A stretch of DNA of 39,497 nt. Origin: Gallionella sp. (lineage in GTDB: Bacteria; Pseudomonadota; Gammaproteobacteria; Burkholderiales; Gallionellaceae). Shown here piece by piece: positions 27,792-28,833 of this stretch. A program made the position numbers and the translations under genes. The stretch covers positions 1 to 39,497 of the forward strand of contig JABEVF010000062.1 in assembly GCA_013043965.1 (NCBI GenBank). The letters are read 5' to 3'. The first letter of the stretch is position 1. Each line of letters begins with the position of its first letter. A model generated the notes under the pieces. The model made no database searches and was not told where the DNA came from. It was given only the letters and a program-made list of their open reading frames with translations.

Positions 27792-27818
27792 TAAAGTTTT
27801 GCGCCAGCTTGCCGATAA
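27792..27818 (+). promoter_or_regulatory. Sigma-28 (FliA) flagellar-class promoter
   Basis: TAAAGTTT and GCCGATAA are separated by exactly 11 bases. This is a complete 16/16 match to the E. coli/Salmonella FliA promoter consensus TAAAGTTT-N11-GCCGATAA. It points towards the HDOD gene; transcription would begin near 27825, leaving a 5' leader of about 130 bases. A perfect match with the correct spacing is very unlikely by chance and implies control with late flagellar and chemotaxis genes. Confidence 0.85.
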
Positions 27819-27901
27819 AACGACTGTACGGGCGGCGGCCGTTTAATATACGCCGGGTTGTCGATGCGCTTGCGCCTAAGCCTCGAGAAGCGGAGGGCGA
27901 T

Positions 27902-27958
27902 ATGCGTTGCCCGCACCACATGAGAAACAATTTTTTGGAAGATGAGTTTGGAAAATGA
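27902..27958 (+). CDS. Short leader ORF (18 codons) coupled to the HDOD gene
   Basis: GGAGGG five bases before ATG 27902 is one of the best ribosome-binding sites in the window. The ORF encodes MRCPHHMRNNFLEDEFGK and its TGA overlaps the HDOD ATG as ATGA. It lies within the predicted sigma-28 leader. The likely purpose is to bring ribosomes to the HDOD start, which lacks a strong site of its own. A functional microprotein is possible but unsupported. The longer 68-residue ORF in the track starts before the promoter and would not be transcribed from it. Confidence 0.5.
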   Translation: MRCPHHMRNNFLEDEFGK

Positions 27959-28833
27959 ATATGTATAACCTTGATCAGCCCGTCAATTTGAAACTTGCCC
28001 TTGCCAACCTGGACACCTTGCCTGCCATGCCGGCGATAGCCCAGAAGCTGTTGGGCCTGCAGTTGGATACGGATCAGGGCGAAGCCGAATTCTTGCGGTT
28101 GATCGAACAGGATCCGCAAATTTCGGCAAAGATCCTCGGTTTGGCAAACACCGCGGCGTATGGCGCATCGCGCAAAGTGCTGTCTCTTTCCGATGCGGTG
28201 ATGCTGATGGGCATGACCCGCGTCAAGTCGGTAGCGATCGGCATCGCGGCAACCTCCACGCTGGCCAAGGTACCGGAAGGCAGGCTCAAATCTACCGAGA
28301 TCTGGATGCACAGCATGGCGATAGCGATGGGCATGAGCACCATTGCCCGCGCCATGCCGGCGCACAGCAGGCCCCAGGAAGACGTGATATTTTTTGCCGG
28401 GTTGCTGCATGACATCGGCTACATGGCCCTCAGCTATATGGACATCAAGACCAGCGATGTGCTGCACGGGCAACTGCAACAGGCATCGGGCAGCATGCTG
28501 CTGAGCATCGAGAAGGAGCTGCTCGGTATGACGCATGGCGAGATCGGTGCGGAACTGGCACGTCACTGGGGTCTTCCGGAGGAGATCGTCGCGGTGATAC
28601 GCGATCATCACGGTTACGGCGAAACGGATACGCGCGCATATCCCCCCTTGGTCCGCCTGGTGAATATCGCCGAGAAGATACTGGGCGAGTTCGGCGTGCA
28701 CAAGCTATCCGAACAGGCCATCGCGGATAGAGAATGGCTCGATCTCGGGATCGACCCGGAAAAAGCCGACGATCTATGCGGTCGGGTCTGCGAAGTGGCG
28801 ACACAAGCCGGGCAGATGGCGAGCGCTTTTTGA
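27955..28833 (+). CDS. HDOD-domain signalling protein, probably motility-linked
   Basis: A 292-residue cytoplasmic protein that is almost entirely one HDOD domain, beginning with LALANLDTLPAMPAIAQKLLGL and FLRLIEQDPQISAKILGLAN. It retains more HD-type metal-ligand positions than many HDOD proteins: H in IWMHSMAI, HD in GLLHDIGYMAL, H in GMTHGEIGAEL and HH in IRDHHGYGE. The final aspartate position reads VNIAEKI, without D. HDOD proteins usually act as protein-interaction modules in chemotaxis, type IV pilus and c-di-GMP networks. The FliA promoter upstream supports a link to flagellar or chemotactic behaviour. ATG 27955 overlaps the leader ORF; ATG 27961 is an alternative. It converges on purB. 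Confidence 0.88.
   Translation: MNMYNLDQPVNLKLALANLDTLPAMPAIAQKLLGLQLDTDQGEAEFLRLIEQDPQISAKILGLANTAAYGASRKVLSLSDAVMLMGMTRVKSVAIGIAATSTLAKVPEGRLKSTEIWMHSMAIAMGMSTIARAMPAHSRPQEDVIFFAGLLHDIGYMALSYMDIKTSDVLHGQLQQASGSMLLSIEKELLGMTHGEIGAELARHWGLPEEIVAVIRDHHGYGETDTRAYPPLVRLVNIAEKILGEFGVHKLSEQAIADREWLDLGIDPEKADDLCGRVCEVATQAGQMASAF

Follow-up and report, generated by a model that had tools for sequence, protein, structure and literature searches.

Background

HDOD-domain proteins have been found to change swimming in Pseudomonas syringae, P. protegens, Xanthomonas, and Campylobacter (PMC11813219, PMC11004494), effects that are known in several bacteria without a mechanism or partner to account for them. 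GsmR (Xanthomonas), SadB (Pseudomonas), PSPTO_4229, and Cj0248 (Campylobacter) share the same HDOD domain and fold, and each affects swimming or flagellar expression (PMC11813219, PMC11004494, PMC6543031). In the case of SadB, binding of c-di-GMP has been tested and reported (PMC6543031). A hemerythrin under sigma28 control has been described in Campylobacter jejuni, where it is termed FedA (PMC4257069), and an O2-binding domain is likewise found with motility or chemotaxis genes in Methylomonas (bhr-77/-88) and in a Desulfovibrio chemoreceptor (PMC12607906). Relatives of Gallionella, which possess several hemerythrins, form bands when growing in O2/Fe(II) gradients (PMC3770913).

The locus described here lies in a stretch of 39,497 nucleotides from Gallionella sp. 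(the window; contig JABEVF010000062.1) and differs from each of these systems. Its HDOD protein is a stand-alone domain behind a sigma28 promoter and is devoid of the YbaK-like domain of SadB. It keeps the HD ligands, whereas GsmR is without the conserved histidine (PMC4114195) and in SadB the HD position is occupied by HN. The promoter shares sequence and spacing with those of flgM, fliC, motA, and a chemoreceptor (MCP) gene of the same genome, as expected of FliA class III flagellar genes, but the gene behind it encodes a signalling protein and stands by itself, outside the flagellar clusters. While FedA is likewise a sigma28-dependent hemerythrin, the Gallionella-type unit pairs a hemerythrin with an HDOD protein in one operon, and in the window the hemerythrin has been lost. 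In contrast to the Methylomonas and Desulfovibrio systems, this hemerythrin consists of a single domain, forms a protein of its own, and is paired with HDOD, being part neither of a chemoreceptor nor of a che cluster. HDOD motility regulators, sigma28 regulons, and a sigma28-dependent hemerythrin are each known; their combination appears to be undescribed, and no mention of HDOD and hemerythrin together was found in the open-licence literature, where absence constitutes weak evidence. Our main reading, to which we assign a probability of about three in four on the basis of the comparisons below, is that the promoter is a genuine FliA promoter and that the HDOD gene is a late-class flagellar gene derived from a unit of sigma28 promoter, bacteriohemerythrin, and HDOD from which the hemerythrin has been lost.

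The FliA promoter and its conservation

An earlier note on this DNA had described an exact sigma28 motif, correctly spaced and oriented, 136 bases ahead of a lone HDOD gene, and all of these elements are present as described. The -35 element TAAAGTTT (27792-27799, + strand) and the -10 element GCCGATAA (27811-27818) are separated by an 11-nt spacer, so that the sigma28 consensus TAAAGTTT-N11-GCCGATAA is matched at 16/16 positions in the correct orientation. The 136 bases extend from 27819 to 27954, immediately before the HDOD ATG at 27955, and both neighbouring genes, DUF347 upstream and purB downstream, are encoded on the - strand, leaving the HDOD gene alone on its own (Table 1). From promoter geometry, the transcript would be predicted to start at about 27825. 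No further match with up to three mismatches occurs elsewhere in the window (shuffle mean, 0.15). Pattern searches, from which the genome-wide motif counts were obtained, found the motif exactly only twice in the 2.48-Mb genome, at the window site and before flhD, against an expectation of about 0.001 by simple counting. On the + strand, no sigma70-like site was found upstream of the HDOD gene, nor was any sigma70 promoter or terminator detected in its vicinity. The leader was also considered as a riboswitch, and no Rfam family reached its cut-off (one weak match is attributable to chance), and as a structured element, with folding no better than that of shuffled sequences (z 1.08).

Table 1. 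Features of the HDOD locus in window coordinates
Feature	Position	Strand	Basis
Sigma28 (FliA) promoter	27792..27818	+	Exact consensus; FliA encoded; four-species footprint; genus-wide 62 vs 1
Predicted transcription start	27825	+	About 7 nt past the -10 element, from usual sigma28 promoter geometry
Probable decayed 3'-end remnant of a bacteriohemerythrin gene, now HDOD leader	27842..27940	+	Local alignment; shuffles
HDOD-domain signalling protein, 292 aa	27955..28833	+	Pfam PF08668; alignment; AlphaFold model

In what follows, G000 denotes the genome of the window and other G-numbers denote congeneric genomes, 76 of which were compared. The closest orthologue of the HDOD gene (79% identity) is found in Gallionella sp. 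MAG 26 (JABEVG010000019.1), a locus also present in G073, and is preceded by a 15/16 sigma28 site; the orthologues of G036 (64% identity) and G088 (60% identity) follow sites of 14/16 and 16/16, respectively. The locus is syntenic in all four species, flanked by an upstream NUDIX gene, which is the immediate neighbour in G036 and G088, and by purB on the downstream side. Alignment of the four promoter regions revealed invariance in 13/16 motif columns as opposed to 3/11 spacer and 2/61 flanking columns (motif versus flanks, Fisher p about 3e-10). Since the flanks are close to saturation while the motif has been kept, the promoter site is evidently under selection. Several related HDOD genes have weaker sites in front of them, namely a tandem pair in G034 (13/16), a gene in G014 (12/16), and genes in G009, G067, and G001 (11/16 each); sites of at least 12/16 occur in five of 36 HDOD upstream regions, compared with 0.4 for permuted motifs. 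Before the more distant HDOD paralogues, a sister clade of 17 members, a recognisable sigma28 site is mostly absent. Regulon membership is therefore not claimed for the HDOD family as a whole, and sigma28 control is a trait of the window lineage and a few others (G034, G014).

The FliA regulon in the genome and the genus

FliA itself is encoded in the genome (G000:C48:4210-4872; 269 bits versus a TIGR02479 cut-off of 189.6), and the flagellar clusters found reside on contigs other than that of the window (C48 and C155). Besides the window site, sigma28 sites precede flhD (16/16), fliC (15/16), and a REC-EAL gene (15/16), and weaker ones precede an MCP gene, flgM, and flgK (14/16 each) as well as motA (13/16). 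Across the 76 congeneric genomes, the pattern TMAAGTTT-N11-GCCGATAW has 62 matches compared with a single match for the reversed pattern. Of the 32 genomes with near-exact matches, 31 possess fliA, and the exception, G084, is probably explained by an assembly gap. Many of the genes behind these matches, considered at one locus per genome and named by eye from translations with some left unassigned, are flhD, flgM, fliS, and MCP genes; the G088 HDOD gene is also among them. With a signal-to-control ratio of 62:1, any given near-exact match is very likely to mark a real FliA target. That the motif of the window might be a chance match that is not used as a promoter is therefore highly improbable, an explanation further opposed by the four-species footprint and by the correct orientation and spacing of the elements.

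The earlier note had placed the HDOD gene in the late flagellar regulon and had named as checks the presence of fliA in the genome and of the promoter at orthologous loci. Both are borne out, and the placement gains support, as judged from sequence comparison, from the encoded FliA, from the occurrence of the motif before flagellar genes, from the conserved footprint, and from the co-occurrence of fliA and HDOD genes. All 47 fliA-positive congeners harbor one or more HDOD genes, as against 6/29 fliA-negative ones, the remaining 23 having none (76 genomes; Fisher p about 3e-14, a value that overstates the number of independent events because the genomes are related). Restricted to genomes that are at least 90% complete, the counts are 30/30 and 5/17 (p about 1e-7). 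The correlation may in part reflect shared ancestry or the general signalling richness of motile cells.

Several other sites deserve mention. The near-perfect sigma28 site upstream of flhD (G000:C155:6036-6062; L002) lies at a distance of roughly 200-290 nt, and a site in this position is also found in about ten congeners (L138-L140, L143-L145, L150, L162-L164); in this genus the master regulator FlhDC thus appears to receive feedback from FliA. The site of the REC-EAL gene (G000:C155:9455-9481; L004) adds a second signalling gene to the regulon, whose product is a probable c-di-GMP phosphodiesterase. A 14/16 site (G000:C126:7529-7555; L010) precedes a gene for a Ser/Gly-rich protein of 217 aa without a Pfam match, possibly a new protein of the flagellar regulon.

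The hemerythrin partner and its probable loss

In MAG 26 and G036, a hemerythrin gene on the same strand is located between the sigma28 site and the HDOD gene, with about 20 nt separating its end from the start of HDOD in MAG 26. Both proteins comprise about 150 residues and match PF01814; E-values against TIGR02481 are 5e-25 and 5e-28 for the two, the bacteriohemerythrin model being passed by the G036 protein and just missed by that of MAG 26. What we take to be the diiron ligand pattern of the family (H, HxxxE, HxxxH, HxxxxD) is readable in the hemerythrin sequence. An intact hemerythrin gene is absent between promoter and HDOD gene in the window, where no open hemerythrin frame is left. The leader segment listed in Table 1 aligns to L090:5889-5994, i.e., the last ~105 nt before the HDOD gene of MAG 26, with a score of 17.5, while dinucleotide shuffles yield 10.8 +/- 1.6 and the reverse-complement control yields 9.5. 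This score was reached by 16/5000 shuffles when the whole hemerythrin gene was used and by 9/5000 when its last 146 nt were used. The alignment is collinear, its end falling immediately ahead of the HDOD gene in the window as in MAG 26; similarity of the leader to the hemerythrin gene of G036, which is more diverged, was not detectable. The alignment is significant but modest, and the 136-nt leader is probably the stub of a lost hemerythrin gene. Furthermore, PF01814 has no match in the window genome, whereas at least one is present in 71/76 congeneric genomes; some of the latter encode more than ten hemerythrins. Taken together, the operon of the relatives, the remnant, and the lack of PF01814 are most simply explained by a history in which the ancestral unit probably consisted of sigma28 promoter, hemerythrin, and HDOD gene, with the first gene lost in the window lineage.

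Other arrangements occur within the genus. In G088, the HDOD gene directly follows the promoter without an intervening hemerythrin. A different hemerythrin gene (L123:2405-2779) lies just downstream of this HDOD gene (L123:1501-2373) on the opposite strand, the two facing each other. In G001, an orthologue of the operon hemerythrin stands elsewhere, behind a 12/16 site. Within the window leader, GGAGG is followed by a short frame, MRCPHHMRNNFLEDEFGK (27902-27958), which overlaps with the start of the HDOD gene at ATGA. This frame could provide translational coupling or have arisen by chance within the hemerythrin remnant.

The HDOD protein and alternative explanations

The HDOD frame matches PF08668 with E=1.3e-44 (152.5 bits versus a cut-off of 22.9). 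An alignment of 33 relatives shows seven invariant residues (H119, H152, D153, H194, H218, H219, and E240), which would, by analogy with HD-GYP enzymes, be metal ligands. The statement of the earlier note that the HD residues are largely kept is hence correct, although the sigma28-driven G088 orthologue, which is outside this alignment, has HN in place of HD. This pattern could be taken as a sign of enzymatic activity, the protein acting as a metal-dependent phosphohydrolase or c-di-GMP phosphodiesterase that is made together with the flagellum and lowers c-di-GMP in swimming cells. In support of this possibility, DVU0330, an HDOD protein in which HD is kept, displays weak activity on bis-pNPP (PMC4114195), and the REC-EAL protein of the same genome is also encoded behind a sigma28 site. 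However, a GYP motif is missing, the corresponding sequence being HHGYGE in the window protein and mostly HHxP in its relatives. The AlphaFold model (pLDDT 84.6) finds its best fold matches in SadB (9qzk), 3MEM, and 3HC1, whereas HD-GYP enzymes rank much lower. Moreover, GsmR is cited as inactive (PMC4114195), and SadB has been described as non-catalytic (PMC6543031). Given these points and the HN of the G088 orthologue, an enzymatic role is rather unlikely as an overall explanation; catalysis by the HDOD protein is possible but is not favoured as its conserved function.

It might also be argued that the promoter is real and the HDOD gene a mere passenger, decaying since the loss of its partner and without a present role in motility. 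The hemerythrin gene is indeed gone, and dN/dS relative to MAG 26 is higher for the HDOD gene (0.19) than for purB (0.056) and DUF347 (0.086), which may indicate that constraint is loosening. A value of 0.19 is nevertheless well below 1, as for a gene that is still constrained, the frame is intact, and HD-type residues are kept. In addition, the HDOD gene of G088 stands directly behind its 16/16 site with no hemerythrin between, so that the solo form is stable elsewhere. The passenger explanation is accordingly improbable.

Under the reading of a late-class flagellar gene, an ancestral two-gene unit of bacteriohemerythrin and HDOD behind a sigma28 promoter, at a locus upstream of purB, would have lost its hemerythrin gene by deletion or decay, so that the original promoter would now serve the HDOD gene only. 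After completion of the hook and export of FlgM, FliA would express the HDOD gene together with genes for flagellin, the motor, and chemoreceptors. Its product would then tune flagellar output through binding of a partner or a nucleotide, a mode of action put forward for PSPTO_4229 and SadB, or, with lower likelihood, through weak metal-dependent phosphohydrolase activity. The HDOD protein is likely to be a signalling protein of the late flagellar class that tunes motility. A role in chemotaxis or in the motile-sessile switch, as suggested by the earlier note, is plausible in view of relatives with tested phenotypes (PMC11813219, PMC11004494, PMC6543031). The ancestral cytoplasmic diiron hemerythrin could have supplied an O2 or redox input or buffered O2, and the need of a microaerophile to keep its place in an O2 gradient would provide the setting for such an input. 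The precedent of FedA and the banding in O2/Fe(II) gradients of relatives with several hemerythrins make an O2-linked motility module reasonable, and the hemerythrin gene that comes first behind the promoter in close relatives hints at a unit for O2-linked control of motility. Of this scenario, the sequences show the promoter and its conservation, FliA, the operon of the relatives, and the remnant, while transcription, the influence on motility, and the connection to O2 are inferred. Only tentatively do we suggest that the sigma28-controlled hemerythrin-HDOD pair represents an undescribed O2-responsive flagellar module in which the hemerythrin would signal O2 or redox state and the HDOD protein would set swimming, some lineages keeping the HDOD output alone.

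The shared, conserved flagellar promoter offers a concrete and testable pairing of an O2 carrier or sensor with HDOD as its output, and does so in bacteria whose way of life depends on finding their position along O2/Fe(II) gradients. Having lost the hemerythrin, the window genome constitutes a natural experiment for separating the functions of the two proteins. As regards the wider family, tandem HDOD pairs are common in the genus (L072, L073, L074, L084, L087, L124-L126), and in several genomes the tandem copies come from different subclades.
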